IMG/VR virus record: IMGVR_UViG_3300025087_000053
Location: 1-64,000 of that record
Length of the DNA: 64,000 nucleotides
Direction: 5' to 3' (one strand)
Source of the DNA: a virus
Shown: positions 21,171 to 38,198 of the stretch, in pieces
Layout: each line of letters opens with the position of its first letter
How positions within the stretch are numbered: the stretch's first letter is position 1
The notes under the pieces: model-generated
The model's input: only the letters and a program-made list of their open reading frames with translations
What the model was told of the DNA's origin: nothing
The model's database searches: none
Position numbers and translations under genes: made by a program

Positions 21171-21206
21171 GGGGATGTCCTTTGTTAGAAGATTGAGTTC
21201 TTACCG

Positions 21207-21707: not shown

Positions 21708-21742
21708 TGTACATTCTCCTGCGTGTATACGCATATATATAT

Positions 21743-22018: not shown

Positions 22019-22026
22019 TATTTTAA

Positions 22027-22590
22027 TTAGTCTATATAATCTAGTCCTTCACCCCAAAAGTTCGGATTTTTTCTTTCCCATACAACAAAATAACCCGAAA
22101 GAACAGAAATATTATCTCTCTTAAAGACTTTGTATGGATGTCGCGTAGCAGCACTTATAGTTCCATATTTTGGTCTTGGCTTGGATTTTTGAAACTTCTT
22201 TCTCTTAGGAATCTGATTAAGAAAATTCATGCACCCGTCCAAGAACACACTTACGTCATATTCTGCAAGATATTCTTCAAGCATTTTCTCAAGTGGATAC
22301 AAATATCCTACAATTGCATACCACTTGTTTCCTCCTTTATCGTTGGAGCGAAAATTATCAAAGCTCAGCACCGTTGCGCTATATCTTGCTTTCTTCTTTT
22401 CTTCTGAACAGCTTAAAGAAAATCCTCTTTCTGGAATCTCCAAGAAGTCGCAAGGAATCAAAAACTTATTTGTCTCTTCAAAAGAATCCTCTTCTACTTG
22501 CTCTTCTTCCGGAAGGCTTATGGAAGATTCTCCAACGCCCAACTTCTCCATCTTCTGTAAGATATCAAGTGCCGATGTCTTTTGTGTCAT
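22027..22590 (-). CDS. hypothetical protein
   Basis: 187 residues. Acidic N-terminal region (EEEQVEEDSFEETNK), basic patch (KRKKFQKSKPRPKYG) and an aromatic C-terminus. It overlaps the end of 22565-23386 by 26 bases. No family recognised. Confidence 0.65.
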   Translation of the reverse strand: MTQKTSALDILQKMEKLGVGESSISLPEEEQVEEDSFEETNKFLIPCDFLEIPERGFSLSCSEEKKKARYSATVLSFDNFRSNDKGGNKWYAIVGYLYPLEKMLEEYLAEYDVSVFLDGCMNFLNQIPKRKKFQKSKPRPKYGTISAATRHPYKVFKRDNISVLSGYFVVWERKNPNFWGEGLDYID

Positions 22591-23386
22591 ATAGATATTT
22601 CTCTTTCACAACAAATTGCTTCTTTGTCTTGGGAGAAATCACCAGATAAGGTCGACTTCCCTTCGACACAGATTGAATTGTTTGATCTTTATTATCCAAA
22701 ACGATAACATCTTCTGTTGTAATCTTGGTTTTATCCTGCGAAGCGTAATACTTTCTGTTCTTATTAAAATTGTTCGGACGATAAACCCTAACTAACTGTC
22801 CCTCTTCAAACTTCGGAGGTTCAAGATAAACTCTCCACACTCTATTAGACCACTTGTTATGACAAATGTAAAGATAGTCTGAGTAGTTTTGCGGAGGACG
22901 AATAAAATATTTATTACTCGACGCATCCCAAAGTTGTGTTTTAGAGAAAATGCTTCTAGCGTTGGGATATTGAGCGCACAAACTCCAGTTTGCAGACTTG
23001 TTGCCAGCACCCAGCGAGAAATTATAATACCCTAAACAAGCTTCCCACCGTTCCTTACATCTTTCGGTGTTTTCTTCAAACCATTTAGAAAAGCCTTTAC
23101 CGCCAAAGCAATCATATACCTTTTCTCTTGAGAACAAATCGTTTGCCATTACACTAATAAACGAAAGTTGCCCAACGGAAAGAGTTGTGATTCTCGCTTT
23201 GCTAAGCAGATCAAGATAATAGCTTTGATATTTATTTTTCCAAATCTCCCAATGAGGAGACTTGTTTCCTTTTAGGTTTTCATTTAGAGTCTTCAAATAC
23301 TTAAGGTTTTGTTTTGTTACCTCATCCAAACTAGACGGATATTCCGGCTCAATTGGCATGTTCTTAAAAAGAATCGGATTAAACAT
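22565..23386 (-). CDS. hypothetical protein
   Basis: 273 residues with many Trp and Tyr (SPHWEIWKNKYQSYYLD, NKWSNRVWRVYLEPP). The C-terminal 80 residues look beta-rich (GQLVRVYRP, EDVIVLDNK, PYLVISPKTK), possibly an SH3-like barrel. Function unknown. Its start overlaps the stop of ankyrin gene C. Confidence 0.65.
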   Translation of the reverse strand: MFNPILFKNMPIEPEYPSSLDEVTKQNLKYLKTLNENLKGNKSPHWEIWKNKYQSYYLDLLSKARITTLSVGQLSFISVMANDLFSREKVYDCFGGKGFSKWFEENTERCKERWEACLGYYNFSLGAGNKSANWSLCAQYPNARSIFSKTQLWDASSNKYFIRPPQNYSDYLYICHNKWSNRVWRVYLEPPKFEEGQLVRVYRPNNFNKNRKYYASQDKTKITTEDVIVLDNKDQTIQSVSKGSRPYLVISPKTKKQFVVKEKYLYDTKDIGT

Positions 23387-24068
23387 GGCAACCCGCTTTC
23401 GACAACAGCTTCACAACTTCGTAGTGGCCTGCTTGCGAAGCCACTAGGAGGGCATAGTTGTTGTCGACCGTTGGATCAACCCTCTCGTCGGCAAGAAGAA
23501 TCCTCACGACCTCTGCATGTCCTTTTAACGAAGCCCATCGGATGGCACAATTGTATGAATCCGCTGGATCGACTCTCTTATCGGCAAGGAGAGCCTTCAC
23601 AACTTTACTGTGACCTTGCTTCGAAGCCCATCGGATGGCAGCGTTGCTATCGTCCGCTGGATTAGCCCTTTTGTCGGAAAGAAAAAGCTTCACAGCTTCA
23701 ACATAACCACTATACGAAACCTTTTGGAGTGCGCTGTTCGTTGGAACAACCCCGCAATCCAAAAGAGTTCTCCACGTCGACGCCTTCTTCAAAGACATCC
23801 GAGGACCAAGAAGAATCTTGTTTGCCTTCCACTTGCTCCCACCGGGGTCCTTATAAATCTGCAAATCCTTGTCGTTTGGGAACGTCACCTCTCGGATCCA
23901 CGGGCCATATCTAAGGAAATCGCAGATGTGCTTTTCGTCGGAGAAATACAAACCTCCGGGGTCACAACTTCCGCTAGGATTAAACGGCAAAATGTCGACG
24001 TTAAGACCCGTTTTATACTTCATTCCATAGTGGCGCTCGTTGTCGTGAAGAATCTTAAAGAACGGCAT
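23379..24068 (-). CDS. ankyrin-repeat protein with conserved N-terminal domain (copy C)
   Basis: 229 residues. Same N-terminal domain as copies A and B (MPFFKILHDNERHYG, GGLYFSDEKHIC, YGPWIREVTFPND) followed by four ankyrin repeats that are clearly more diverged (ASKQGHSKVVKALL, ASLKGHAEVVRILL). It is probably the oldest copy, with A and B derived later or homogenised. Own promoter at 24104-24132. Confidence 0.85.
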   Translation of the reverse strand: MPFFKILHDNERHYGMKYKTGLNVDILPFNPSGSCDPGGLYFSDEKHICDFLRYGPWIREVTFPNDKDLQIYKDPGGSKWKANKILLGPRMSLKKASTWRTLLDCGVVPTNSALQKVSYSGYVEAVKLFLSDKRANPADDSNAAIRWASKQGHSKVVKALLADKRVDPADSYNCAIRWASLKGHAEVVRILLADERVDPTVDNNYALLVASQAGHYEVVKLLSKAGCHV

Positions 24069-24103
24069 GGCGATATCCTTTGGTAAAAGCTAAATTCTTG
24101 CCG

Positions 24104-24132
24104 AGGATAACAAAAACAAAAGAGGATGTCAA
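24104..24132 (-). promoter_or_regulatory. sigma70-type promoter of ankyrin gene C
   Basis: Minus strand TTGACA, 17 bases, TATCCT, upstream of ATG 24068. Confidence 0.75.
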
Positions 24133-24135
24133 TAG

Positions 24136-25737
24136 CTATTTTTTAACGAGAACACAACTTAGCGTAATTAACATGGAGGCGGCGCTAAGAGCGTTGAGAA
24201 GCGCAAACACTTCTACTTTCGTAGGATCAAGAATCCCGGCCCCAATCATATCAGGTACAAAACCTCTTGTCAAGAAATTATACCCTTTCCATAAACTTTT
24301 GTTTTTATTTCTTTTATTTCTCTTTAGCACCTCTGAAGAAAGAGAATCAAAGCTAACGCCAGAATTGCCACAAAGCTTTCTGAATGGAGAAGATAGGGCA
24401 TTTTTAATGATTTGAGCACCATGTTTTTGTTCCTCTGTTTTAAAATCGCACATCTTTAAAGATTCGGATTGAAGCAGCAAGGGGATGCCTCCACCAGGAA
24501 GATACCCATGTTCTAGAGAAGACTTAACCGCCTCTAAAGAGTCCTGAACTCTGTGCGTTTTTTCTATTGCTTCTGCTTCTGTATACCCTCCAACACGTAT
24601 AACCGCAGCTCCAGAAGAAAGTCTAGAAATTCTTCCTTCAAGAATCTTTTGTTTTATTTCGCTCTCTTCTCGGCGAAGCTCTTCTTTTAATTCTTCTGTC
24701 TTGGCAAGTATCTTTGCTTGCTCTCCTCCTCCACCAACGAAAGTAGAAACATTTTTATAAATCTCTACTGATTTGACTCGACCAAGATGTACCATTCTGG
24801 TTTTTTCTAAAGTCAGCATCGCACTATCATAAGGAGAAATAAACTCTGCTCCAGTGACAAGAGCCAAATCTTTAAGTATCTCTTTTCTTTCTTCACCAAA
24901 AGCGGGAGGACTTACCACCGCAATTTTCATTGTGTTGTTGATTGCGTTTAATATAACAGCCGATAAAGCCTGACCCTCCACCTCTTCCGCGATAATTACC
25001 AAAGGCTTTCCTTCTTTTGCTGCCATGGTCAGAATACCCATTATTTGCTCAACAAAAGAAACTCTCTGATCTGTTACCAACACCAATGCGTCGTTATATC
25101 TTACGGAATTTGTTCTATGGTCGTTTACAAGCGCCGAAGAAACATAGCCTGAGTTAAATCGAAATCCGTCGATATATTCAACAACGGTATCAAAAGACTT
25201 CGACATTTCAACCACAATTGAGCCATCTTTCCCTATGTTTGAAACAACATCCTCTATTAGATTCCCAATAACTTCGTCGCCATTTGCAGAAATTGTCGCA
25301 ATACTTTTAATTTGTTCTGTTGAGTCAACCTTGAGAGAACTCTTTTTCAATTCTTCTACAACTTTTTCTACAGCTTTTTCCATTCCCACTTTAAGTTCGT
25401 TGGGATTGTCGCCAAGATCAAGATATTTCAAAGAAGAGAAAAAGATATTCGCGGCCAACACAATACTTGTCGTAGTTCCATCACCTGCGTTGATGTTTGT
25501 GGAAATTGCAGCTTGCTTTAATATTTGTACTATGGCATTTATAATCGGGTCATCTGATTCAACAAACTTCGCAACAGTTACACCGTCTTTCGTTTGGACG
25601 GGCGAACCATCTCCGCTCTTTAAAAGAACCGTTTTACCAGCAGGACCCATTGTTGACGATACAGGAAAATAAATAAGTTCTATCGCCTTTAGAACTTTTT
25701 CTCTAAGCTCACGAGAATCCATTTCATGAAAATTCAT
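24136..25737 (-). CDS. GroEL-like chaperonin
   Basis: 533 residues from ATG 25737 (ribosome-binding site AGAGGTTTGAGA; an in-frame TTG lies two codons upstream). Chaperonin hallmarks: TMGPAGKTVLL, TKDGVTVAK, the ATP-binding NAGDGTTTS, and the ATPase Asp in VQDSLEAVKSSLEHGYLPGGG. The GGM tail of bacterial GroEL is missing. Phage-encoded chaperonins fold capsid or other virion proteins and may act without or with their own co-chaperonin; a GroES-like gene is present at 36280-36552. Follows the amidase gene directly. Confidence 0.93.
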   Translation of the reverse strand: MNFHEMDSRELREKVLKAIELIYFPVSSTMGPAGKTVLLKSGDGSPVQTKDGVTVAKFVESDDPIINAIVQILKQAAISTNINAGDGTTTSIVLAANIFFSSLKYLDLGDNPNELKVGMEKAVEKVVEELKKSSLKVDSTEQIKSIATISANGDEVIGNLIEDVVSNIGKDGSIVVEMSKSFDTVVEYIDGFRFNSGYVSSALVNDHRTNSVRYNDALVLVTDQRVSFVEQIMGILTMAAKEGKPLVIIAEEVEGQALSAVILNAINNTMKIAVVSPPAFGEERKEILKDLALVTGAEFISPYDSAMLTLEKTRMVHLGRVKSVEIYKNVSTFVGGGGEQAKILAKTEELKEELRREESEIKQKILEGRISRLSSGAAVIRVGGYTEAEAIEKTHRVQDSLEAVKSSLEHGYLPGGGIPLLLQSESLKMCDFKTEEQKHGAQIIKNALSSPFRKLCGNSGVSFDSLSSEVLKRNKRNKNKSLWKGYNFLTRGFVPDMIGAGILDPTKVEVFALLNALSAASMLITLSCVLVKK

Positions 25738-25739
25738 TC

Positions 25740-26501
25740 TCAAACCTCTTTCAACAGTTGTTCAATATCTAAAGCTCCATAACAATCCTGTTTTTCTCTA
25801 TTGATATGATAATGATGAATAAACCCCTTACAAGAGTTATGGATAAATGTTGCTTTATTCCCATTCAAAGTCTGCAAAGGAAGATGAAAGAAAAGATGAA
25901 AAGCCTTCCAAAGCTCTTTTAAAGCCTCTAGTTGTATTGGATAAAATCCTAATATCTTCCCAAGTTTAACACCATTCACTCTATCCTGGGTTTCTATAAT
26001 CGGTCGTGCTCCAAATCCATTCTTCTCATACCAATCTTGGTATTTTAGTTCTACAGCGTTTGTTATTTCAACTCCAACGCTTTTTGCATTATAGGGCTTT
26101 GCGTGCTGAGCAATGTCCGCAATGTCACACATTTGATATATCGTTCCATCGTTGTCAATAGAAAAATGAACACTCAATCCTCTATGTTCCAATACAGAAT
26201 AGCAATCTCGCGAGGACAAACAAGCATCCCAATGGTTAACAAATAAATTAATCTCTCTGGTCCCCTTAACACTTACTACATTCTTATTCCTCATTCCTCC
26301 TGGCTCTGTGAAGTCGACAACAGGCCAGGCAATGGGGACTGAAGCTGTTCTCCGATAGATAAGAAAATTTTCCTCTTTTAAACTAGGCTTCTGGGGCACA
26401 TAGGTTATGCCTTTCTCCAGATTATAGTTGGAAATATTCTCTCTCGCGAGAGCTGAGAGGTCTTCTTTGGTTTTTGTCATCGCATTCGAGATTTGAACCA
26501 T
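25740..26501 (-). CDS. N-acetylmuramoyl-L-alanine amidase (endolysin-type)
   Basis: Amidase_2 (T7 lysozyme/PGRP) fold: NLFVNHWDACLSS, VHFSIDNDGTIYQM, DIAQHAKPYNAKSVGVEITN and a C-terminal HHYHINREKQDCYG provide zinc-ligand His/Cys positions. Cleaves peptidoglycan cross-bridges for lysis. The original start is probably ATG 26480 (246 residues), but a TnpB element ends 5 bases upstream. The element's terminal repeat supplies AAGGAG and an in-frame ATG at 26501. In this copy the repeat reads GTT CAA instead of GTT TAA, which keeps the frame open (MVQISNAMTK...). No other signal for export was seen. Confidence 0.88.
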   Translation of the reverse strand: MVQISNAMTKTKEDLSALARENISNYNLEKGITYVPQKPSLKEENFLIYRRTASVPIAWPVVDFTEPGGMRNKNVVSVKGTREINLFVNHWDACLSSRDCYSVLEHRGLSVHFSIDNDGTIYQMCDIADIAQHAKPYNAKSVGVEITNAVELKYQDWYEKNGFGARPIIETQDRVNGVKLGKILGFYPIQLEALKELWKAFHLFFHLPLQTLNGNKATFIHNSCKGFIHHYHINREKQDCYGALDIEQLLKEV

Positions 26502-27870
26502 GAACTCCTTAGTTAACATGGGTTTAAATCTTCTCCTCCTGTTAAAAAGAATGAATTTGAAAAAAAGTCAACATATTTCACTTCGTGTGCTATAATTATA
26601 GTGTGCCGAAACATCATTCTACAACTTCCGAAAATAACCTCCCCACAACTATCCTCGGCCAACGCATTCGGCTGGATCTTAATAACGTCCAAACATCTTT
26701 TTTTGAACGATGCGCCGGTGCTTCCCGTTTCGTCTACAACTGGGGATTGGACCGCTGGAAAGCTCAGTACGAGGCTGGTGGAAAACCGTCGTGGGTTAGT
26801 CTTAGCTCTGAACTGAATGCCTGTAAAACTACCGAATTTCCCTGGATGATCAAGCTGCCGTGGGCTGTTCCCTCTACGGCGCTGTCCAACCTCGGCAATG
26901 CTTTCTCCAACTTCTTTCGTCGTGTTAAATCTGGCCAAAAGCCCGGTTATCCCCGTTTCAAGTCGAAGAAACGGAACAAAGCAGCCTTTGCCATCGAGGG
27001 CCGAGCCCTTCGTTTTGACGGCCGAAGAGTTAAAATTCCCAAACTCGGCTGGGTCCGCACCCGACAAGAGATAAGATTCCCCGGCAAAATCTTGTCCGCT
27101 CACTTTACGAAACATGCCGGTCATTGGTACGTCTCGATTCAAGTTCAAGTCTCCGACTCCTGGTCTTATCCTCACCGCTGCGAAACCCAAGAAACGGTTG
27201 GAGTGGACCTCGGACTTCGAGACCTTGCCGTGTTTTCCACTGGAGAACGGGTCGAGGCTCCACGCATTCTGCGTGCTCATGAAACCCGACTGCGACGACT
27301 CAACAAGGAAATGTCTCGTCGCGTCATAGGAGGAAGAAATTGGCAGAAGACTAAAACGAAGCTTAGTCGGCTGCATGAACGGATTTCCAACATCCGCAAA
27401 GACGTAACGCATAAGCTTACCGCTCGGCTGGTCCGAGACTTCCGTCGGATTGGAATCGAGGACTTGAACGTCAAGGGAATGATGGCAAATCACCATCTTA
27501 CCAAGTCGATTGCGGATGCTTCCCTGTCGGAAATTAGGCGTCAGCTCACGTATAAGGCTCCGCTTGCCGGCAGCGAAATCGTTGTTGCAGACCGCTGGTT
27601 CCCCTCTTCCAAGCTGTGTTCCGACTGCAGAACAAGACGAGAAGAGCCGTTGCCTTTGTCTGTCCGAGAATGGGTTTGCGAAGCCTGCGGGGTTGTCCAC
27701 GACCGAGACATCAACGCAGCCATTAATCTTAGAACCGCCGCCCTGGCGGGGATAGCCTGCTGTCAAGAAAGCTCTGGTTCTGGCCTTACGGCCAGAACGA
27801 AACTCTCTCATGGGCAGGAATCGAGCAGCCGTGTTAACTAAGAAGTTCATAGTTTAAGTCTCGAAGGGGA
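26485..27870 (+). mobile_element. TnpB element, full-length copy 2
   Basis: About 1.39 kb, ends TTCGAGATTTGAACC (left) and GTTTAAGTCTCGAAGGGGA (right), with about 25-30 bp of inverted similarity between the two ends. Inserted between the ClpP-like gene stop (27882) and the amidase start. Contains one intact tnpB. Very similar to copy 1. Confidence 0.85.
26603..27841 (+). CDS. tnpB: TnpB RNA-guided nuclease, copy 2
   Basis: 412 residues from GTG 26603, seven bases after a TATAAT box (leaderless, as in copy 1). RuvC-I GVDLGLRDLAV, RuvC-II GIEDLNVKGM, zinc finger CSDC...CEAC and RuvC-III HDRDINAAINL are intact. The last 35 codons overlap the two right-end hairpins expected to form the guide RNA scaffold. 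The long antisense frame 26513-27850 is not a gene. Confidence 0.92.
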   Translation: MPKHHSTTSENNLPTTILGQRIRLDLNNVQTSFFERCAGASRFVYNWGLDRWKAQYEAGGKPSWVSLSSELNACKTTEFPWMIKLPWAVPSTALSNLGNAFSNFFRRVKSGQKPGYPRFKSKKRNKAAFAIEGRALRFDGRRVKIPKLGWVRTRQEIRFPGKILSAHFTKHAGHWYVSIQVQVSDSWSYPHRCETQETVGVDLGLRDLAVFSTGERVEAPRILRAHETRLRRLNKEMSRRVIGGRNWQKTKTKLSRLHERISNIRKDVTHKLTARLVRDFRRIGIEDLNVKGMMANHHLTKSIADASLSEIRRQLTYKAPLAGSEIVVADRWFPSSKLCSDCRTRREEPLPLSVREWVCEACGVVHDRDINAAINLRTAALAGIACCQESSGSGLTARTKLSHGQESSSRVN

Positions 27871-27881
27871 TGTCTAGCCCC

Positions 27882-28559
27882 TTAAATAATCTCGTCGATT
27901 ATCCCATACTCAAGAGCTTTTTGTGCAGAGAAGTAGTGGTTTCTCACCTTAAGAAACTTTTTTAAGTCTCTCTCGGTAAGCTTTGAATTTTCCAGAAGAA
28001 TTCTGCAATAGGTATCTTGCAAAACAGTAATTTCTGCAGAATGTTCTTTCATTGCCGGGTATGAACCTTCAAAAGAGGCGATTACATTATGAATCATAAA
28101 TCTACAGTTTTCAGTAGCTCTTCTCTTTGTACCGCCAATTAAAAGTATTGTAGCAGCAGATTGACATGTGCCAATAGCAGTAGTGATTATTTCAAATCCC
28201 TGTCTCTTTATGATCTGCATCATGTCATAAACACCCAAAGTTCCCTCCACTATCCCACCCGTAGAAGAAACTAAAATCTCAAAAGGCTCTTTTACTACTT
28301 CTTCTTCTCCGGTTTCTTCGTTTTTGTAAAGATATAGACCTTTTGCTGCGAGGGAAAGCATTTGAAACGTTGCGCTAGCACAAACGTCTTCTGTTATCTG
28401 TCCGTATACACCAACAACTCTTAAAGGATTAGAGTCTTCCGGAGAAACAAAAAGTCCCTTATCCTCATCATCCTCGCCCTGCTCACAATGGTCGCATAGC
28501 TTAGTATAAACCTTTTTATTTACTTCGCATACACTACGAAGTTTATTTGAATTTTTCAT
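27882..28559 (-). CDS. ClpP-like serine protease
   Basis: 225 residues from ATG 28559 (ribosome-binding site CGGAGAATTC). ClpP fold: ILVSSTGGIVEGTLGVYDMM, catalytic Ser134 in GTCQSAAT, His157 in CRFMIHN. At the position of the third triad residue (ERD in ClpP) it reads VRN, so Asp is replaced by Asn, as known in some ClpP paralogues. It has an N-terminal extension with a CDHC pair. Just upstream is an acidic, Pro-rich protein that resembles scaffold or prohead-core proteins, so the protease may process the prohead rather than act with a Clp ATPase (inference). A 7-bp hairpin (TTCGGTC/GACCGAA) precedes its ribosome-binding site. Confidence 0.88.
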   Translation of the reverse strand: MKNSNKLRSVCEVNKKVYTKLCDHCEQGEDDEDKGLFVSPEDSNPLRVVGVYGQITEDVCASATFQMLSLAAKGLYLYKNEETGEEEVVKEPFEILVSSTGGIVEGTLGVYDMMQIIKRQGFEIITTAIGTCQSAATILLIGGTKRRATENCRFMIHNVIASFEGSYPAMKEHSAEITVLQDTYCRILLENSKLTERDLKKFLKVRNHYFSAQKALEYGIIDEII

Positions 28560-28606
28560 GAATTCTCCGGGTTCGGTCATACAGACCGAAGGGGTTATTT
28601 TTTATT

Positions 28607-29305
28607 TCACTTAGTCTTGGAAGATTTGCGAGACTTCGCTTCTTTGACGGCAGAACGAAGCTTTGAAACCACTCTGCGATAAACCTCGTTAATAACCTCT
28701 TCGGAAACCTCTCCTTCAGTAACAGGAGCGTCTTCTTCGGTCACAACTTCGGCGCCAGCAGCAGCAGGAGGTGCTTCGGCTTCTTTAATCTTGCCCTTTT
28801 GAACCATTTTGCCTTTGCCAAGCTTTTCTTGCATCACAGGAGGCTCTTCCTCTTCTTCCGCTTCGGGAGCCGGGGGCAGGCCACCTTCGCCACCTTCGGG
28901 AGCCGGGGGAGGCATCTCGCCGCCTTCGCCACCTTCCATTTCGCCACCTGCGCCACCGTCTACTTGGACATTAACATTCGCTCCAGACTTAGCAGAAATA
29001 ACGTCTGCGATGTCTTGGATTAGTTCTGCTACGGCCTCTTCGGGCAGACCAGCAAGAGCGCTGTCTTCTACAGGAGCGCCTTCCTCGGGCGGCATATCGG
29101 AGGGCATGTCACCTGCGGGAGCGGGCGGAGGAGGCTCGGCACCGGCATCAACTGGGGGCATATCGCCACCTTCGGGCGCGCCTTCCTCGTCCTCTTCGTC
29201 CTCTTCTTTCAGACGAGCCAGAAAGCCTTCAGTCAGTTTCTCTTGACCAGCCAGACGCATGAATCTAATAGTTTCATCTCTTTCCAAAAGTAGCTTTTTA
29301 GCCAT
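28607..29305 (-). CDS. acidic low-complexity protein, scaffold-like
   Basis: 232 residues. The N-terminal 32 residues are ordered (ERDETIRFMRLAGQEKLTEGF). A long Glu/Pro/Gly/Ala stretch follows, repeated as GGEGG-MPPP-APE units. The C-terminus is helical and basic (EEVINEVYRRVVSKLRSAVK). Composition and position next to a protease suggest a prohead core or scaffold protein, but no family signature is visible. GC-rich relative to the phage average because of the Pro/Gly/Ala codons. Confidence 0.6.
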   Translation of the reverse strand: MAKKLLLERDETIRFMRLAGQEKLTEGFLARLKEEDEEDEEGAPEGGDMPPVDAGAEPPPPAPAGDMPSDMPPEEGAPVEDSALAGLPEEAVAELIQDIADVISAKSGANVNVQVDGGAGGEMEGGEGGEMPPPAPEGGEGGLPPAPEAEEEEEPPVMQEKLGKGKMVQKGKIKEAEAPPAAAGAEVVTEEDAPVTEGEVSEEVINEVYRRVVSKLRSAVKEAKSRKSSKTK

Positions 29306-29364
29306 TTTTCAATCTCCTTGATAACAATTCTTACGCCACTCGGCGGTTTCATTATTAAATAGTA

Positions 29365-29661
29365 TCAAAATTGACGAAACTCTTTGAAATCTCGTTTTTT
29401 TCTTAATTTTAAGTACGACCTATCCAAAATCCTAGATATTGCAGTATAATGAATTCCTAATCTTTTTGATATCTGTTGCAAAGTCATAGGCCCGTTTTCA
29501 TTTATCGAAAAATAAGTACAGTTATATTCTTCTGGAAATTCTATCCACATCCTACAACTTTCAGAAGAACACGGACACTCTTCGGAATGACACTTTTGTA
29601 CACATTCTGGTAAATCCCTTAAATTATTGATCTTTTTCCTCGTCTGCATCATCATTTTCAT
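29365..29661 (-). CDS. sigma70 region-4-like helix-turn-helix protein
   Basis: 98 residues. The C-terminal half PMTLQQISKRLGIHYTAISR-ILDRSYLKLRKK matches the region 4.2 pattern of sigma70 factors (TLeEIa.rLGit...VrqIl..aL.kLR). The N-terminal half has six Cys (CVQKC, CPCSS, CRMW) likely binding zinc. Proteins of this type occur in other large phages and may be small sigma or anti-sigma-like regulators of late transcription; function here is not shown. Overlaps 29624-30316 at its start. Confidence 0.7.
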   Translation of the reverse strand: MKMMMQTRKKINNLRDLPECVQKCHSEECPCSSESCRMWIEFPEEYNCTYFSINENGPMTLQQISKRLGIHYTAISRILDRSYLKLRKKRDFKEFRQF

Positions 29662-30316
29662 CCGCCTTTTCTAAGTCTTCTAAAGTCAAAGAAGCAACCT
29701 CTTCGTCCTCTTCGAAGTCTTTTAGTAATTCATCAAAATTTAAATAATCTTCTACTTTATCTTCATAAACAGTAGGAAAAGAATCGTCCACTTCGTCTTC
29801 TTGCTGTATGTTTCCAACCAAATAATTGACTACCTCTTTTCTTTTTTCCAGTTGTTCTTCTATTTCCTTTAATTTTCTTTCGTTTGGATAAAACACGTCT
29901 GGGTGTCTGTAATTATAAATCTTACGAAAAGGGTTTTTATTTTTAGTAAGAACACCCTTTCTAATAGAAGGCAAATCAAAGAAGTTCCCTCTTCTCGTAT
30001 AGCTCTGACTATATTTCTTTGTAGCGTAATCTCTTAGAAACTTAATAAACTCAATGTCTTCTTCTATAATTAAGTCCATCACCGTAAGCCAAACCCAATT
30101 ATGAGACAAGTCTAATCTGTCAAGAGAAAGAAAAAACCTTACAAACTTCTGAAAGGAAACGGCTATTCCCGGAACTCTTGTATCCATATACATGAAATCG
30201 TCATGTATAAAGTTGTTAGGGTCTCTTTCTTTTTCTCTTCGAGAATAATAAGCGTTGGAACTTTCTTTTCTGCGTCTTATTACCTCATCGACAAATAATT
30301 GATATCTTTTGGGCAT
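29624..30316 (-). CDS. hypothetical protein with acidic tail
   Basis: 230 residues. Basic, aromatic first half (SSNAYYSRREKERD, KKYSQSYTRRGNFF), coiled-coil-like middle (RKLKEIEEQLEKRKEVVN), and a very acidic last 60 residues. Located between the polymerase and the sigma-like gene, three bases from the DnaE C-fragment. Function unknown. Confidence 0.65.
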   Translation of the reverse strand: MPKRYQLFVDEVIRRRKESSNAYYSRREKERDPNNFIHDDFMYMDTRVPGIAVSFQKFVRFFLSLDRLDLSHNWVWLTVMDLIIEEDIEFIKFLRDYATKKYSQSYTRRGNFFDLPSIRKGVLTKNKNPFRKIYNYRHPDVFYPNERKLKEIEEQLEKRKEVVNYLVGNIQQEDEVDDSFPTVYEDKVEDYLNFDELLKDFEEDEEVASLTLEDLEKADENDDADEEKDQ

Positions 30317-30318
30317 AG

Positions 30319-32400
30319 TTATAGCTTTCTAAATGCTTCATTTATCTTCTTGTTCGTAGAAAAACCCCACTTCTCATCTTTGGTAACGACGCCAACATAA
30401 GCTGAGTTTTCAACAAGAGGATAATAGTCTTTCACATTCCAGCACTTAATTTTGTTCTCTTCACCCGTATTATCAACCACCGTAAGAACAGCATAATCTT
30501 TCTTGTTTGCTAAGGTTTGCTTAAACTCTACGCTCTTTAATACAAACCAAACATATTTGCCCACTTCCCATTCGCTCACCGGAACGGCGCCAAGAGACTT
30601 TAAAGCTTTTACGTCTTTAGGTGAAACAATTTGGTCAACAGGATAAACTCCTGTTAACTGAGAGCGATAAATAAGTCTTTCTTTTTCCGCGAAGGAGCCT
30701 TCTGGAGAATACAATTTAATATTTTCTTCAAAGTCTTCTTGGTCTTTAGGACGAATAACCGCCACACATGACCAGAAATGCTTGTCGCCAGTAAACCTTT
30801 CGTCCATAAGACTATCTAATGCGCCGCTTCTTGTCAAGACATCTAGATACTTTTTATTTAGCTTCTTGCCCCAAATGTCTTCTTTAAAAAGCACATCTTC
30901 AATCTTATTGTAGGGACGACAATAGGAGATTTGTTCTACAGCGGTCTTGCCCATCCCCAGCAAAGAGAACAGAGGTTGAATAAGTTCTTTTTTGTTGTCT
31001 GGAGACACATCCCAATCATATAAAGAGGACTTATTTATGTCCACAGAAGCCATAGTGAACCCAATAGATTTAGCATCAGATATCGCTTTTGCTTTTGTTT
31101 TTTCTGGCTCGCTGTTGAGGAAGGCGGCAACCCATTCGCTTTGATAATAAGTAAAAAGCCAAGCACACTGATAAGAAAGGATGGAATATCCGCAACTGTG
31201 GGACAAATTAAATCCATAATTGTTGAATAATTCCAAGGACTTCCATAATTCTTCTAAAGCATTACCTTCAATCCCCTTTTCAAGACCACCCTCGACAAAC
31301 TTCTTATAAATCTTCTCTTTCTTTTCTGCGTTGTTCCCTATGAGACCCTTTTTTGTCAAGAGTTTTCTAAGAGAGTTTCCTTCCATTAGAGAAACGTCTT
31401 TCCCTATTGCAACAGCCAACTTAGCAATTTGCTCTTGATAAATAACAAAGCCATAGGTACTTTTTAAAACAGGCTCCACACAAGGATGAAGGTAGGTAAC
31501 GGTTTCTGGATGCCTTTTCGCTTTTAAATACTTCTTGTCTATGTTCGAACCCAGAGGTCCCGGCCGATATATCGAAGTTACAGCAGACAAATCCTCAATA
31601 GATGTGGGTTTAACTTTCACGCAAAAGGATTGCGCGCCGTCGTTAGAAAATTGGAAAATACCTAAATTTAAATTCTTCTTCTTGTGGAAAACAGTTTCCC
31701 ATACTTTCTGATCGTCGAAGTTGATTACGTCGGGGTGCAAGTTTCTATTATAAAACTCTATAATTTCTTTTATCCCACAAGAGAGTTTTCTTTTGTGAAG
31801 AATATGTTTGATAGTATCTTCTATAATTGTTAAAGTTTGCAATCCTAAAATATCAAATTTAATAAACCCCAAAGGTTCTAGATGCCGTACCGCTTGCCCT
31901 TCAGACCAAGGACTTTGGAAAGAACCCTTGGCGCTAATAAGAGGCATTTTTTCATGTAAGTTATCAGACCAAACAAGTCCCGCCGCATGTTGTCCAATAG
32001 ACTTCACCATGCCTTGTAAATTTTCTATGTGAGATGCTACAGAGGGATATTTTCTTAAAAAGGCTTGGAAAGAAGGACTATATGCCTTAACTTCTTCATA
32101 AGTAGGTTCGTAAACTCCGGCAACTTGCTCATGATCCTGTTTGGCTTTTGGTAAAGCCTCGTCGACCATTTTTGTTGTTACTTCATTAACTTCTTGAAAA
32201 GATACATTATAAAATTTTGATATGTCCTTAACAAGAGACTTCAAGTGAAATGTGCCATAGTTTGAAATAAGAGTTGCGCTCTTTTCTCCCCACTCTTCAA
32301 TAAGAAAAGTCTTAAACTCTGCTGCACGAGAAAAATCGCAGTTGTGAACAATAACAGTCTTATAACTCTCTTTAAAAGAGTGATGTTTAATGATTTCCAT
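30319..32400 (-). CDS. dnaE: DNA polymerase III alpha subunit, C-terminal fragment with C-intein
   Basis: 693 residues. The first 20 (MEIIKHHSFKESYKTVIVHN) are a C-intein ending in the canonical His-Asn followed by Cys+1. The extein starts CDFSRAAEF, the second half of the PDxDxDF catalytic motif. Fingers and OB regions are recognisable: HAAGLVWS, GFIKFDILGLQTL, SIYRPGPLGS, FVIYQEQ, GFNLSHSCGYSILSYQ. Its ATG has a ribosome-binding site (AAGAGGAAAC) and a TAG blocks read-through in its frame, so it is translated separately, with a 14-base overlap with the N-fragment gene. Active polymerase requires protein splicing with that fragment. Main replicative polymerase of the phage. Confidence 0.93.
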   Translation of the reverse strand: MEIIKHHSFKESYKTVIVHNCDFSRAAEFKTFLIEEWGEKSATLISNYGTFHLKSLVKDISKFYNVSFQEVNEVTTKMVDEALPKAKQDHEQVAGVYEPTYEEVKAYSPSFQAFLRKYPSVASHIENLQGMVKSIGQHAAGLVWSDNLHEKMPLISAKGSFQSPWSEGQAVRHLEPLGFIKFDILGLQTLTIIEDTIKHILHKRKLSCGIKEIIEFYNRNLHPDVINFDDQKVWETVFHKKKNLNLGIFQFSNDGAQSFCVKVKPTSIEDLSAVTSIYRPGPLGSNIDKKYLKAKRHPETVTYLHPCVEPVLKSTYGFVIYQEQIAKLAVAIGKDVSLMEGNSLRKLLTKKGLIGNNAEKKEKIYKKFVEGGLEKGIEGNALEELWKSLELFNNYGFNLSHSCGYSILSYQCAWLFTYYQSEWVAAFLNSEPEKTKAKAISDAKSIGFTMASVDINKSSLYDWDVSPDNKKELIQPLFSLLGMGKTAVEQISYCRPYNKIEDVLFKEDIWGKKLNKKYLDVLTRSGALDSLMDERFTGDKHFWSCVAVIRPKDQEDFEENIKLYSPEGSFAEKERLIYRSQLTGVYPVDQIVSPKDVKALKSLGAVPVSEWEVGKYVWFVLKSVEFKQTLANKKDYAVLTVVDNTGEENKIKCWNVKDYYPLVENSAYVGVVTKDEKWGFSTNKKINEAFRKL

Positions 32401-34267
32401 GTTTCCTCTTGTTGTCTATCTCAAGTACAAATCTCTTTCTTTCTTCGGTAATAGTATTAAAAACTTCTATTACATCCAATGGAACTATTTGAAAACTTTT
32501 TGTTTCTCCCAATAAAGAAATGTCGGTTAAAGCTATTCTTTCTTTTTTTTGTTTTGACATCTTTTCTATTTCCAGCACCACTACTTCCCCGCCAATAGAT
32601 TTCAAAGAATCACCAATTTTTAATTCTTTTGTCTTAGTAACCCTGTCACTTGAAAGAATAAACTTGTGCGTTTCGCCCGCAATAATAATACCCAAAATAT
32701 CTTCTTCTACTTGTTGTACTACTATTGAAAATACTTTTTCTTTCGGCCGCACATTTCTACTAAAAACAGCAGAAACCACGGAGTTCTCTCCAAACTCGTT
32801 TATAACAACATCTCCTATTAGAACATCTCGAAGTTTTTTATATCCCCCAGAAACTCGTACTTCGTGCCCGCTCCAAAGACAATCTATGTCGGGACTCGAA
32901 CCTTCGGATAAAAATCTTTCAAACAAAAGACCATATTTAATAGGGTCGACATGTGTTATGTTCAACACATACGCAATTAAAGAACCTCCAGCAGAGCCCC
33001 GCCCTGGTCCAGTCAGACAAAAATTCCTGCTTTTGTCTATTATCTTTTTCATTGCCAGAAAATATTTACAATATCCTCGGTCTTTTACAACCCTAAGCTC
33101 ATGTTTCAGTCTGTCTACATATTCTTTCTTTTCATACAGCCCCTTGGCCTTTAGACCAGCCACTGCCCTCCTTGCTAAAGCCCCTTCTTCAGTTTGGCCA
33201 GTGGGGACAACAGAGGAAGGTAGTTTATAGCTTCTGTCCATATCGACATTCTCTATCCTGTTCATAGCAATGTCATATGTGTTATCGAGACTCTTTTCTA
33301 TCGTGTCATCTTCATAAAAAGAATTATGTTTAAGAGAATATTTTTTATAATCTCTCCACATTTCTTCTGCAGATTTTGGATACAACTCATAACCGATTTC
33401 TTCTACGGTTTCTGGTAGCTTTGCCTGCTCGCTGTCTTTAGAGTTTAACCAACCCAACTTCTTGTAAAGAAATCTATCTTTCCACAACTCGGGCCTTGGG
33501 TAGTGTGCGTCAGCAGTAGAAACCAGCTTAAACCCCATCTCAACTGAAAGCTGTATTATTAGTTGGTTTAAATCATGCTGTTCAACAAAGTCATTCCACT
33601 GTAATTCTCCGTACCATCTATCTTCAAAGATATCCAACATAGCTTGCGTTGTCTTGCGCATCTCTAAAAGAATATAGTCTGTTCCCTTTTCGTAATTATC
33701 AAAAAAGTTAGAAGAATAAACTCCGCCCACACAAGCACTTGTTGCAATAATGCCTTTGTTATATGAACGAAGCATATCGTAATCTATTCTGGGGTATCTA
33801 TAGAAGTTTTCTCTCTTGTAGGAGTTGTAGACGAGTTGAAATAGATTTTTAAGCCCGTCTTGATTTTGAGCCAAAAGAAGTATATGGCTTCTTTTATTAA
33901 TTTCTGTCTTCTTTGTCCTTGAAAACCTCTTTAGATCGTCTTCAATAACCGTTGCGTTTATCTCTTCTTCTTTCTTCTTTTTTAATTCTTTGTTCTCTTT
34001 GGCCGTTTCGTATGCCGTTCTCCACTTCTTAAAAGAAGGAATAATATACGCCTCAATTCCATATATTGGTTTTACTATCTTCCCCTCTTTTTTCATTTCT
34101 TCTGCGGCAAATAGTTGGTAGGCCATGGAGTTCATGTTACCATGGTTCGTGATGGCGAGGGCTTCACCCCCCGTCTCGTGGACTCTTTCCATAAATTGTT
34201 TGGGATAACCGAATCCGTCAAACACCGAGAACGTATCGTGGCAATGAAGATTTACAAATTTTACCAT
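32387..34267 (-). CDS. dnaE: DNA polymerase III alpha subunit, N-terminal fragment with N-intein
   Basis: 626 residues. PHP domain at the N-terminus (NLHCHDTFSVFDG, ITNHGNM, PIYGIEAY), then the palm with GPGRGSAGGS and LLFERFLSEGSSPDID, which breaks at residue 462 within the PDxDxDF catalytic motif. Residues 463-626 are a 164-residue N-intein: block A CLWSGHEVRVSGGYKKLRD...GDVV, block B GETHKFILSS...LKIGD, block F-like RFVLEIDNKRKH. No homing endonuclease domain is inserted. The first catalytic Asp lies on this fragment and the second on the other, so neither half can polymerise alone. Confidence 0.93.
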   Translation of the reverse strand: MVKFVNLHCHDTFSVFDGFGYPKQFMERVHETGGEALAITNHGNMNSMAYQLFAAEEMKKEGKIVKPIYGIEAYIIPSFKKWRTAYETAKENKELKKKKEEEINATVIEDDLKRFSRTKKTEINKRSHILLLAQNQDGLKNLFQLVYNSYKRENFYRYPRIDYDMLRSYNKGIIATSACVGGVYSSNFFDNYEKGTDYILLEMRKTTQAMLDIFEDRWYGELQWNDFVEQHDLNQLIIQLSVEMGFKLVSTADAHYPRPELWKDRFLYKKLGWLNSKDSEQAKLPETVEEIGYELYPKSAEEMWRDYKKYSLKHNSFYEDDTIEKSLDNTYDIAMNRIENVDMDRSYKLPSSVVPTGQTEEGALARRAVAGLKAKGLYEKKEYVDRLKHELRVVKDRGYCKYFLAMKKIIDKSRNFCLTGPGRGSAGGSLIAYVLNITHVDPIKYGLLFERFLSEGSSPDIDCLWSGHEVRVSGGYKKLRDVLIGDVVINEFGENSVVSAVFSRNVRPKEKVFSIVVQQVEEDILGIIIAGETHKFILSSDRVTKTKELKIGDSLKSIGGEVVVLEIEKMSKQKKERIALTDISLLGETKSFQIVPLDVIEVFNTITEERKRFVLEIDNKRKHGNH

Positions 34268-34269
34268 GT

Positions 34270-35184
34270 TTATTTTTTACCTAAAAACTCCATCGCCTGA
34301 AGGGTTTGACGAGGAATGAATTCTTTTTTAGAAAGGAACTCTTCTCGCTCGGGGAACTCTTTTGTTTCTAGCAAGAAGCTTCTATATCCTTCCCACAGAG
34401 TAATATCATAGGACCAAGTGGGAGTCAAGAAAATATCATCTTCCTGTCGCGCAATATTCTCAAATACCTCTTTAAACTGTATCTTCTTATAGAAGTTTTC
34501 TTTAAGGGCTTTTTCAAGAGACTCGTACTCTTTTTTTTTCTTATTGACAGAAGAGTAATATGCCTTAACAAACTCAACAAACCTGTTGTATCTTATTATA
34601 AAAGGGCACAACTCTCCGTCTAAAATTGTTTTCCCATCTCTCTCAAAGAAGATATTACCACCTTCCCAGCTCATAGCTGTTTTTCTTACTTCGTTCAAAA
34701 AGTCTAAATCGGTTGCAGAATAAGGAAACATTACAAGATATTTATCCGGCAAAGCATATGCTGATATTGTTTCAAACATCTTTGTTGTCAATATCATCGC
34801 TTTTAAAGTAGACCACAACAGAGTATTAACTCCTTCCTCTTCGAAGTCGGAGATAATATAAAAAATAGGGATTCTCTTCCTTAAAGAATTTAAGTTTGGG
34901 AACGCATGTCCTTTGCCTTCTTCTAAAAGGTTCTTGTGATAAAGATACTTGCGAGCAAAAGCAGGAGAGTACATCCAATTCCCAAGTCTATTTCGTATGG
35001 GAATATATTGTTTATTGTTTACTACAACATAAATTGAAGTTGCACCCAAAAGAGCCGCCTCATATGCTGTCCTCTCAAAAGCTAAAAGACCTTTACCGAC
35101 GGGGATATACAAATCATTCCAATAAAAAGAAGTATTTCGAAAGTCACCGCTAATCGGAATTATCGCGGTCGACGTAAAGCCCAC
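34270..35184 (-). CDS. nucleotidyltransferase-like protein (NTP-transferase fold)
   Basis: Start set at GTG 35184: it follows GAGGCCG, reduces the overlap with the upstream gene from 146 to 35 bases, and places the first strand (GFTSTAIIPISGDFR) at the N-terminus. The frame is open to 35295. Features IIPISG, then LYIPVGKGLLAFERTAYEAALLGATSIYVVV, resemble sugar-nucleotide or small-molecule nucleotidyltransferases. The rest is unrecognised. Could make an activated sugar for DNA or host-surface modification (inference). Confidence 0.55.
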   Translation of the reverse strand: MGFTSTAIIPISGDFRNTSFYWNDLYIPVGKGLLAFERTAYEAALLGATSIYVVVNNKQYIPIRNRLGNWMYSPAFARKYLYHKNLLEEGKGHAFPNLNSLRKRIPIFYIISDFEEEGVNTLLWSTLKAMILTTKMFETISAYALPDKYLVMFPYSATDLDFLNEVRKTAMSWEGGNIFFERDGKTILDGELCPFIIRYNRFVEFVKAYYSSVNKKKKEYESLEKALKENFYKKIQFKEVFENIARQEDDIFLTPTWSYDITLWEGYRSFLLETKEFPEREEFLSKKEFIPRQTLQAMEFLGKK

Positions 35185-36271
35185 CGGCCTCGTCACATCC
35201 CGATCCTTCTCCCTCAGATCCCGAATGGTCAGAATCTTTTTTATCTTTCCAGACATCATCTCTTTCGTATTCTTCGAAGTAAAGGTCGTTTCCACTTTCT
35301 GCCTTTCCTTTCCACATCTTCATCGCATCCCACAAATAAGAAGAAGCTGCATTTGTAATTGGAGTATTTTGTAAATATTTAAGCCAAGGAGGATAATAAT
35401 CTTCCTCTTTCAAAAAGAATTGTATTCTCTTCTCTGGATCGTAATAAACGTTGGGGTCTTCTATGTATTCTTCTCTTCTAACCATATCCAAATAAATCGG
35501 ATAATAAGAGACTTCGGGCTGTTTCTCTTTTGATCTCCACATCCGCTTTCTCCCAACTAACCCAAGAGTGTTTTTAATAAAAAAGCTAAGATATTCCAAC
35601 ACTTCTCCTTGGGAATATCTTCGCAATTCTTCTCCCTGTATGTCTTTAAGCTTAAGACGAGACACAGAAATAATATTTGTGTAAGGCTTGCTAAACGCCT
35701 GAGAAAGCTTCTTAAGAACAGGAGTCTTGCCAAGACCAACTAAAGGAAAATGTATAATTGAACAAAGTTTCTCTTCTCTTTTAAAAAATCTCTGCTGTCC
35801 AAAATGGCACTTCCAGTCTCCCTGTATGTCTATCATATTAGCCCAGTCAAAATAATAAACATTAACGTCTTCTGGATTTCTTTCTCCTGTTTTGTATTTC
35901 GATAATCCTTCCACGTTATGTGTGTCATAAACAAGCAACTTCTTGTATTGATAAGAATATTCTCGCCCGCCATATATTATATGGACAAGCCGTTTCTCTC
36001 CATCCACAACGATTTTATCTGCTGCGCTATCGTTCAGCATAGCTCCGTTAAACAGAGAAGTATAAAAAACATTCTCTCTAAACCACTTAAGTCTACTGAC
36101 TTCCCACGGAAGAGGATCTATTTTTCTTGTATACGCAATCCCAGGTCTTTTCAACGCAAGGGAAGCACACAGCATAGAAGGAAAATTGCAGCCTATTACA
36201 ATAGTTGCAAACGTTCTGTAGGCTTTAGCGCGAGGAAGTCTTCTGGGCCTTGAGTAGAAAAAGAACTTCAT
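35150..36271 (-). CDS. conserved-looking phage protein, Rossmann-like N-terminus
   Basis: 373 residues. Early segment FATIVIGCNFPSMLCASLA looks like a dinucleotide-binding strand-turn-helix; FDWANMIDIQGDW and SVSRLKLKDIQGEEL are other conserved-looking patches. The last 35 residues are a charged low-complexity tail (KDKKDSDHSGSEGEGSG) overlapping the next gene. I recall similar proteins of unknown function in other large phages, so no activity is assigned. Confidence 0.6.
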   Translation of the reverse strand: MKFFFYSRPRRLPRAKAYRTFATIVIGCNFPSMLCASLALKRPGIAYTRKIDPLPWEVSRLKWFRENVFYTSLFNGAMLNDSAADKIVVDGEKRLVHIIYGGREYSYQYKKLLVYDTHNVEGLSKYKTGERNPEDVNVYYFDWANMIDIQGDWKCHFGQQRFFKREEKLCSIIHFPLVGLGKTPVLKKLSQAFSKPYTNIISVSRLKLKDIQGEELRRYSQGEVLEYLSFFIKNTLGLVGRKRMWRSKEKQPEVSYYPIYLDMVRREEYIEDPNVYYDPEKRIQFFLKEEDYYPPWLKYLQNTPITNAASSYLWDAMKMWKGKAESGNDLYFEEYERDDVWKDKKDSDHSGSEGEGSGCDEAGGLYVDRDNSD

Positions 36272-36279
36272 CGATCATT

Positions 36280-36552
36280 TCAAAGCTCGATGTAAGCAAC
36301 GACGTTGTGTTCTCGAATAAGAAAGAACTCTCTATCTAGGATCTTTACAGACTGAAGGAGGTTCTCAACCACAAGATAGGTGGCTTTTGGTCCCGTGTCT
36401 GCTCTAACCACAACGAAGTCTTGAGCCTTGTCTTTAGCTTTATCCACAGGCAAGAGAAGATTAATTTCTTTGTCTTTGGACAAACCCTCTGATAGTTCTT
36501 CAAGGTCGACCTTTTCTACGACCATCCACTTATTTGTTGGCTTCAGGTGCAT
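36280..36552 (-). CDS. GroES-like co-chaperonin
   Basis: 90 residues from ATG 36552 (ribosome-binding site GGGAG). The N-terminus LKPTNKWMVVEKV and C-terminus LQSVKILDREFFLIREHNVVAYIEL match the first and last strands of GroES (IRPLHDRVIVKR and [23 protein letters not shown]). The central mobile-loop region is present but divergent. With the GroEL-like gene at 24136-25737 this suggests that the phage makes a complete chaperonin, although the two genes lie about 10.5 kb apart. Confidence 0.7.
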   Translation of the reverse strand: MHLKPTNKWMVVEKVDLEELSEGLSKDKEINLLLPVDKAKDKAQDFVVVRADTGPKATYLVVENLLQSVKILDREFFLIREHNVVAYIEL

Positions 36553-36553
36553 C

Positions 36554-36817
36554 TCAGTCTCCCAACATCTTGACAATCTTCTTCTGCATCTCGCTTAGAT
36601 CTTGAAAATTAGTCCCGTTCTTACGGAGACGATAGACAATCATAATGTCTTTAATTTGTTCCTTTGTAAGCCAGTTGTTATCTACGTAGCCTTTCCGAAG
36701 TTCCTTTCGTTGCTCCTTGTACGGCTCAATAGTAGCATCAATCGTAGCAATAGACTTTAGATAATCTGCAATTCTTTCCTCTGTGCTCTTGGGTTTCTCG
36801 TCAACGTTTTCTGTCAT
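36554..36817 (-). CDS. hypothetical protein
   Basis: 87 residues, charged and helical (TEERIADYLKSIATIDATIEPYKEQRKELRKGY). Ribosome-binding site AAGGAGAAAG. Its stop is two bases from the GroES-like start. The 36822-36997 gap upstream holds a possible promoter and a doubtful 25-codon frame (36897-36974). Confidence 0.6.
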   Translation of the reverse strand: MTENVDEKPKSTEERIADYLKSIATIDATIEPYKEQRKELRKGYVDNNWLTKEQIKDIMIVYRLRKNGTNFQDLSEMQKKIVKMLGD

Positions 36818-36997
36818 TTCTTTCTCCTTAGGTGATATCTTCTATTCTAGATCACCGTTTGTTAAGACAATGCAACTACAACAAAATATCTATTTCCTAG
36901 TCTTTAACCTTCCGGACAATTAAACCTAGGTCTAAAACAACTCCATTTTTAGAAACTATGATATCAAATATCATTTTTCACAGAGTACCACAAAAGT

Positions 36998-37711
36998 TTA
37001 TACTTCATCTTTCTCGTACTTTCTGTCTAACTCTTTTATAAAAGAGCTTAGCCCAGGTATTATTTCTTTTACAAAAGAAACAAATTCTTCTATGCTTAAA
37101 CTTCCTTTTAAAGAATTAATTGCGAAACAACACAAAACAATGTTTTCTTTTGTATATCCTTTTGTTGGGTCTATTCTGTCTATGCTTACACTATCGTGTT
37201 GAAATATACCAGAATTACGACTAATGCTTTTACCTGTGTAAAAGCATTTTCCTTTTTGTTTTAGGAATAAATCGTAAATATCATCTTTTTCTAAAGTACA
37301 AATAATGTTTTTCCTCCTGCACGAGAAAGATATTGAAGATATCCTTTGTCTAAAGTAAGCTTTTAAATCGCTTTTCATCTTAAAAGACTTCTTTTTATAC
37401 CCTGCTTGAACACAACTGTAATTTGCAAAGCACTCTTTACAAACCTTCTGGTACCCTGTTAAGGTATGTCTGTTTTTCGAGAAATCTAATAATGGTAGAA
37501 ATTTCTTACACTTATAACACCATTTTTCCCCATTTTGTATAGAAGGGCAAAGGTGCCTTCTTTGCGAAAATTTATATTCCTTTATCGCTTCAATCCCACA
37601 TCTTCGACACTTTAACCAAACAGGTTTGTGAGAGCCTTTTTTTAAGTCACCAGTAGAATAGCCGAATTCTTCTTTGGTCTTTTCTTCTAAAATTTCATAC
37701 TCTCCATACAT
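36998..37711 (-). CDS. free-standing HNH endonuclease
   Basis: 237 residues. N-terminal zinc modules (LKCRRCGIEA; WCYKCKKFL...VCKECF), then an HNH-type core (GKCFYTGKSISRNSG..., SIDRIDPTKGYTKENIVLCC) with the conserved D-R-I-D and N. The zinc-finger plus HNH layout is common in phage homing endonucleases. It lies about 2.7 kb upstream of the split-intein polymerase locus. Whether it homes to that locus or to the 36.9 kb gap cannot be told from sequence. Confidence 0.85.
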   Translation of the reverse strand: MYGEYEILEEKTKEEFGYSTGDLKKGSHKPVWLKCRRCGIEAIKEYKFSQRRHLCPSIQNGEKWCYKCKKFLPLLDFSKNRHTLTGYQKVCKECFANYSCVQAGYKKKSFKMKSDLKAYFRQRISSISFSCRRKNIICTLEKDDIYDLFLKQKGKCFYTGKSISRNSGIFQHDSVSIDRIDPTKGYTKENIVLCCFAINSLKGSLSIEEFVSFVKEIIPGLSSFIKELDRKYEKDEV

Positions 37712-37754
37712 CTTGTTTCCCTCCTATATAAATAGGAGGAAATTTTGGTTTTAT

Positions 37755-38198
37755 CTAGTCTGACGACCCGAATCCGCCCGTGCCTCTGCTGGTGTTTGTA
37801 TTAACCTCTCCAACAGTAAGATCACAATATACCACAGAACCAAACACCATTTGCGCAATTCTTGAGTAGGGAAACACAGTGTAAGGCTCTTTACTATAAT
37901 TATAAAGGATTACGGCAATTGGGCCACGGTACTCGTTATCAATACTGCCGGGAGAGTTTGCAACAGTAACTCCATTTTTAAGAGCCAACCCCGACCTTGG
38001 ACGAATTTGCGCATCAACGCCTATAGGCATTTGCATTTTAAATCCACAAGGAACCAACGCCCACTGTCCCGGCTCAAGCACCAAAGGCTCTTTAAGAAAA
38101 GCCTTAAGGTCATAACCCGAATCTGTAGGATTTGCTTTCGTCGGCATACACTCCGGGTCGTCAAGCTGGATAATAAACTTCGAAAAAGTGTGTGTCAT
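37755..38198 (-). CDS. dut: dUTPase
   Basis: 147 residues, full-length trimeric dUTPase. All five motifs are visible: DSGYDLKA, PRSGLA, GSIDNEYRGPI (catalytic Asp), FPYSRIAQMVF and the C-terminal RGTGGFGSSD. Hydrolyses dUTP to dUMP, keeping uracil out of DNA and feeding dTMP synthesis; fits with the ThyX-like, dCMP-deaminase-like and NrdJ genes nearby. Confidence 0.96.
   Translation of the reverse strand: MTHTFSKFIIQLDDPECMPTKANPTDSGYDLKAFLKEPLVLEPGQWALVPCGFKMQMPIGVDAQIRPRSGLALKNGVTVANSPGSIDNEYRGPIAVILYNYSKEPYTVFPYSRIAQMVFGSVVYCDLTVGEVNTNTSRGTGGFGSSD

Follow-up and report, generated by a model that had tools for sequence, protein, structure and literature searches.

Cyanobacterial split DnaE inteins (Npu, Ssp) interrupt DNA polymerase III alpha at a site that differs from the PDID|C position considered here. 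Split inteins also occur in phages, where gp41-1 and other inteins of "fractured genes" were reportedly described by Dassa et al. in 2009. Natural split inteins have been described as either typical, with the break at the endonuclease position and a C-intein of ~35–40 amino acids (aa), or atypical, with an N-intein of 15–25 aa (PMC10189870, PMC11923092, PMC12707363); the cyanobacterial DnaE pairs measure 102–111 + 35–36 aa (PMC2664965). Shorter C-inteins have been engineered: Npu DnaE N123/C15, with a 15-aa C-intein, displays robust trans-splicing (PMC2664965), and "S11" inteins with C-inteins of 6–7 aa were functional in 4 of 14 cases (PMC3620165; S11 set: Ssp GyrB, Ssp DnaX, Ter DnaE-3, and Ter ThyX). 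Here, we describe a split intein in the dnaE gene of an uncultivated tailed phage, located in a 64,000-nucleotide (nt) stretch (the window) that comprises positions 1 to 64,000 of the IMG/VR record IMGVR_UViG_3300025087_000053, itself 75,562 bases (75.5 kb) long.

The polymerase is encoded by two overlapping genes, with all dnaE features of the window on the minus strand. The N gene (protein P0001) runs through ...SSPDID, ending at residue 462, into N-intein residues 463–626 (CLWSGHEV...KRKHGNH), and the C gene (protein P0002) opens with the 20-aa C-intein MEIIKHHSFKESYKTVIVHN followed by CDFSRA. An initial annotation had proposed a split intein in the PDxDxDF motif with a 164-aa N-intein starting at Cys463, spanning 32338–32881, which equals the intein plus the Cys+1 codon. 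The open reading frames (ORFs) and the tiling of the exteins along DnaE confirm this split polymerase gene with its split intein. We interpret the element as a naturally split class-1 intein in a phage DNA polymerase III alpha, broken between blocks F and G, with a probability of roughly 0.87; we regard the intein as real, naturally split, probably active, and of a new split type. Two further contigs, L014 and L013, carry inteins at the same residue and are drawn upon in the following feature assignments.

32387..34267, minus strand: gene for the N-fragment of DNA polymerase III alpha plus the N-intein, 626 aa (P0001); ORF, PHP domain, DNA_pol3_alpha positions 19-106.
32882..34267, minus strand: N-extein, 462 aa, ending ...FERFLSEGSSPDID; Pfam/NCBIfam matches end at 462-463, with alignments to Taq and E. 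coli alpha.
32390..32881, minus strand: N-intein, 164 aa, with Cys1 and blocks A, B, and F; PT-HINT E = 7e-4, 31% identity to the L014 N-intein, profile match to gp41-1.
32486..32530, minus strand: block F on the N-fragment (LTDISLLGETKSFQI), aligned with L014 LCDIQVENSETFQI, L013 LVDITLNKTNLF, and gp41-1 LIDIEVSGNHLF.
32390..32485, minus strand: 32-aa tail of the N-intein following block F, which contiguous inteins lack by alignment.
32405..32409, minus strand: Shine-Dalgarno-like AGAGG of the C gene, from the sequence.
32387..32400, minus strand: overlap of the two genes, 14 bp, from the ORF coordinates.
30319..32400, minus strand: gene for the C-intein plus the C-fragment of DNA polymerase III alpha, 693 aa (P0002); ORF, DNA_pol3_alpha 112-260, finger, and HHH_6 domains.
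32341..32400, minus strand: C-intein, 20 aa (at most 25), with block G ending VHN; bounded by the upstream stop, counterpart of the 16-aa C-intein of L019/L021 (the L014 virus).
30319..32340, minus strand: C-extein, 673 aa plus stop, starting at Cys+1 (CDFSRA); Pfam domains, alignments to Taq and E. coli.

Together, the exteins account for an entire polymerase domain. The Pfam DNA_pol3_alpha match stops at Asp462 in P0001 and picks up right after Cys21 in P0002; with positions 19–106 matched on the N protein and 112–260 on the C protein, the two exteins cover the domain without loss. Membership in the DnaE family is evident from the PHP, palm, and finger domains and from all three catalytic Asp residues. 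When joined, the exteins read PDID-CDF, and the proposed restoration of the motif holds in alignments to DnaE (Pfam, Taq, E. coli). The Taq alpha structure has P462-D463-I-D465-T-D467-F at this position, with the later palm Asp at 618 by alignment, while the E. coli motif, counted from the alignment with 2hnh, is P400-D401-F-D403-V-D405-F. The conserved metal-binding residues of E. coli alpha are D401, D403, and D555 (PMC3919608). Window Asp460 and Asp462, both on the N protein, correspond to D401 and D403, the first two Asp of the motif, and Asp183 of the C protein corresponds to D555. The catalytic triad is distributed 2+1 over the N and C proteins, and the alignment to E. coli and Taq alpha places the insertion directly after the D403 equivalent. 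An uninterrupted dnaE with 48% identity (L005) displays PDIDYDV at the same site; the site is therefore empty there, and Cys occupies a variable position in the window.

To find relatives, DnaE sequences were scanned for PDID-Cys with any residue other than Asp next; besides the window virus, only L014 and L013 were retrieved. In L014 (IMGVR 3300037086_000360; also L019 and L021), a 153-aa N-intein starts at the identical PDID|C residue and shares 31% identity with the window N-intein over 140 residues (E = 3e-13, two-sequence comparison). The L014 C gene, 1.1 kb away, starts MDLSIYNTSFTLCSHN-CDFEPR, with a C-intein of 16 aa (at most 24 given the upstream stop). Between the halves sits a putative endonuclease gene of its own, 360 aa long, whose product is weakly similar to Vsr endonucleases (DUF7487 E = 8e-8, Vsr E = 3e-3). 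A homologous N-intein at the same residue, combined with an even shorter C-intein, puts the window arrangement beyond chance. The second relative, L013 (IMGVR_UViG_3300031521_000025, 3846–8100), contains a PDID|C intein with a canonical split of 95 + 43 aa. A 133-residue match (E = 7e-5) links the window intein to the joined L013 intein; it crosses the L013 fragment junction towards block F. Judged by homology, the window intein is not an isolated oddity: a related canonical split (L013) and a second apparent F/G split (L014) occupy the same site, and the F/G split with a short C-intein, as placed by alignment, is present in two unrelated phage contigs at one polymerase residue.

Both relatives have features of their own. 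A short spacer separates the halves in L013, possibly an endonuclease-gene remnant (weak match, E = 0.46). In L021 (IMGVR_UViG_3300037086_000360, 20000–38000), the polymerase lies in three pieces (1172–3475, 9876–10571, and 11685–13709), and two different split inteins, flanking a 40-residue middle extein, are needed. The first, GPGRG|C...SVHN|SAAGS, is canonical (100 + 38 aa) with intein_Nterm above the cut-off, and the second is that at PDID|C; pieces 1 and 2 lie 6.4 kb apart, with a large ATPase-like gene and others in between.

The position of the break follows from block F. It lies on the N-intein in the window (LTDISLLGETKSF) and in L014 (LCDIQVENSETF), and on the C-intein in L013 (LVDITLNKTNLF). 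When all three same-site inteins are combined in a profile, the gp41-1 split intein (6qaz) is retrieved with E = 8e-9, the alignment running through gp41-1 LIDIEVSGNHLF. A profile of the two N-fragments (window, L014) alone reaches gp41-1 with E = 2e-5, and the L014 N-fragment alone with 1e-3, through the same Phe; in gp41-1, nine residues are left after the block F Phe. These alignments imply that the N-fragments correspond to the gp41-1 N-intein plus most of its C-intein and that the C polypeptide contributes little beyond block G. Since the N-fragment carries block F, the break comes after it and before block G, as in the engineered S11 type, and the placement put forward in the initial annotation is upheld by the L014, L013, and gp41-1 alignments. 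The C-intein length of about 20 residues given there also proved accurate: the stretch measures 20 aa, a stop 15 nt upstream of the ATG means that it cannot exceed 25 aa, and the L014 counterpart has 16 aa. The window intein departs from the canonical (S0) layout, which is split before block F and has a C-intein of ~35–50 aa with blocks F and G, and from the atypical S1 layout, whose N-intein of ~15–37 aa compares with 164 aa here. By sequence alignment alone, it belongs with the S11 type, split between the block F and G strands with a very short C-intein. Natural splitting is seen in both the window and L014, where the halves lie on separate genes with their own starts.

Compared with known systems, the window intein resembles the engineered S11 inteins and Npu N123/C15 in its long N-intein, very short C-intein, and split near the last Hint strands. 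Those constructs are laboratory-made, whereas the window type is found in nature, in at least two phages; unlike the engineered S11 inteins, the natural C-inteins here are 16–20 aa, with extra N-tail and C-head residues. With gp41-1 and the fractured genes, the locus shares a phage replication gene in two pieces, class-1 residues, and the best structural profile match. A free-standing endonuclease gene between the pieces extends this likeness in L014, whereas none remains in the window. The difference is that gp41-1 is split before block F (88 + 37 aa), while here block F resides on the N-fragment. The cyanobacterial split DnaE inteins likewise interrupt DNA polymerase III alpha, and alignment of the window intein with Npu revealed no significant sequence similarity. 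AceL-TerL and PolB16 OarG (S1; PMC11766414, PMC10189870) are also naturally split away from the endonuclease position, with one very short piece; however, this piece is the N-intein (15–37 aa) in those proteins and the C-intein in the window. No natural example with a short C-intein was found in the open-access papers searched, so priority is unproven.

Several observations weigh against a natural, active F/G split. The C-intein head, "KHHSF", resembles the second half of block F, and for the window alone the break could be placed within that block. In block B, His72 is kept and the Thr/Ser is replaced by Gly (AGETH); in block F, Asp120 is present and the His is replaced; all three same-site inteins lack this His. 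Searched by itself, the window intein scores poorly against intein models (PT-HINT 7e-4, which misses the curated cut-off). AlphaFold2 modeling of the fused window intein, for which the overlap was read with AGGA as Arg, gave an uninformative predicted local distance difference test score (pLDDT) of 32 from a two-sequence alignment. Larger alignments with cis-inteins were set aside, since they put block B or block F in the wrong place.

The first of these points belongs to the rival that survives best, in which the split is natural but lies inside block F rather than after it, like the engineered Npu N123/C15 (PMC2664965), since the C-intein KHHSFKESYKTVIVHN can be overlaid on Npu RDHNFALKNGFIASN. 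The relatives count against it. The window and L014 N-inteins align through DI..F-FQI-P--V, which is block F of gp41-1 and L013, and the corresponding L014 stretch is too short to supply that block, with 6 residues from "TSF" to the terminal Asn. We consider a break within block F unlikely.

The missing block B and block F residues and the weak intein match would also suit a dead intein, leaving either a non-covalent two-subunit polymerase or a decaying polymerase gene. This scenario is quite improbable, as every residue acting directly in class-1 splicing is retained. Cys1, the block B His, the block F Asp, the penultimate His, Asn, and Cys+1 are all present in the window intein, and the class-1 ends are found at Cys463 and at Asn20 and Cys21 of the C protein, likewise in L013 and L014. 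Furthermore, the exteins are intact with the three catalytic Asp kept, an unspliced palm would carry 164 + 20 additional residues inside the motif, and related inteins are retained at the same residue in two other phages. Blocks A, B, and an F-like block had been assigned earlier to the N-intein; that assignment stands for Cys1, the block B His, and the block F Asp, but does not extend to the block B Thr/Ser or the block F His. The loss of these two residues would not exclude splicing, and rates are not predictable.

A contiguous cis-intein, made to look like two frames by a one-base sequencing or assembly error, has a very low probability. The C gene is read in the N-gene frame +1, the two frames overlap one base apart, and a single insertion or deletion within 29 nt would give a fused intein of ~180 aa. 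Yet this 29-nt stretch contains no run longer than 3, and the C-gene ATG, with the Shine-Dalgarno-like AGAGG 4 nt before it, is positioned exactly there. Three IMG/VR records are identical over the region, the two other contigs being 100% identical over 9.7–11.9 kb; they represent the same virus and are perhaps not independent samples. The strongest argument comes from L014, which has the same split, yet 1.1 kb and the endonuclease gene lie between its halves, so that no frameshift could join them. On the basis of L014 and the identical records, a sequencing frameshift was rejected, and the AGAGG is in line with the earlier argument that a ribosome-binding site of its own for the second gene speaks against one. 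A programmed +1 frameshift leading to a continuous polypeptide and cis splicing is barely credible: the overlap geometry would permit it, but no recognised slippery motif was seen there, the C gene has its own start, and a relative with separated genes (L014) cannot frameshift.

For a naturally split intein broken between blocks F and G, the overlapping reading frames would yield two separately translated proteins. The 164-aa N-intein would make up the Hint fold, block F included, except for its last strand, and the 20-aa C-intein would insert as that strand and bring His-Asn|Cys to the active site. Following formation of the Cys463 thioester, the N-extein would be transferred to Cys+1, and Asn cyclisation would afford the ligated PDID-CDF. 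The 32-aa N-tail and the C-intein head, which lack a counterpart in contiguous inteins, may function as association segments. Before splicing, the catalytic carboxylates would be distributed over two separate polypeptides; polymerase activity is therefore expected to require trans-splicing, and the unspliced halves are very probably devoid of polymerase activity. The data establish the sequence anatomy, the intein homology, the same-site relatives, and the recurrence of this split type in a second phage; fragment association, splicing, and the dependence of polymerase activity on splicing are inferred.

A broader proposal, which we hold to be reasonably probable, is that these inteins constitute a natural S11-type lineage, the first known in nature, at one polymerase residue. 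The usual break point, seen in L013, would have shifted past block F in the window and L014, the added N-tail and C-head would represent a new association device, and the L014 polymerase would be assembled from three chains by two split inteins. If true, a natural F/G split would mean that this break is evolvable; in the literature searched, natural splits lie at the endonuclease position or close to the N-terminus (PMC11923092, PMC12707363), and the short C-intein appears only as an engineered form (PMC3620165, PMC2664965). Three relatives at one residue, which represent two split types and in one case have an endonuclease gene between the halves, offer a way into how break points move. A natural C-intein of 16–20 aa would be chemically synthesisable, as is sought in the field for C-terminal labelling, and a replicative polymerase would have a trans-splicing step within its active-site motif.

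Additional searches were made for related inteins and split polymerases. A nucleotide search in phage records gave no match, an N-intein search in phages gave a weak match to block A only, and searches with the A2 and A8 inteins returned no further same-site member. A genome-contig scan yielded one candidate, a false positive. Split dnaE genes were examined in Rossellomorea phage phiT1 and Bacillus phage KLEB27-3; phiT1 was rejected as a similar case, as its break lies elsewhere without an intein. In phiT1 (L009, PV767480, 1792–5074), dnaE breaks after ...INQGVAV into two ORFs that flank a third of 49 aa, with no visible splicing element.

Pattern scans for HNCDF junctions recovered terminase and clamp-loader inteins and no further DnaE. 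C-halves of apparent canonical split inteins (40–41 aa) are located in L065 (3242–3964, minus strand), L068 (7161–7883, plus strand), and L030 (704–1441, minus strand), where they precede CDFxxxxAQxxLRxxME in an apparent phage clamp-loader subunit. Cis-inteins in terminase-like genes of L028, L032, and L075 end LYDLTDV..SLY(L/I)(T/A)DG(I/V)(V/I)SHN|CDF, with the block F His likewise missing.

Elsewhere in the window, two ORF copies with ~90% DNA identity (15331–16587 and 26585–27841, both plus strand) encode what appears by eye to be a TnpB/OrfB-like transposon protein. Isolated ~140-bp copies of the 3′-end of this ORF are present at 18919–19058 and 60225–60364, possibly as non-autonomous or guide-RNA-bearing ends. 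The phage also encodes a GroEL-like chaperonin (24136–25743, minus strand; phrog_5725, E = 8e-121).

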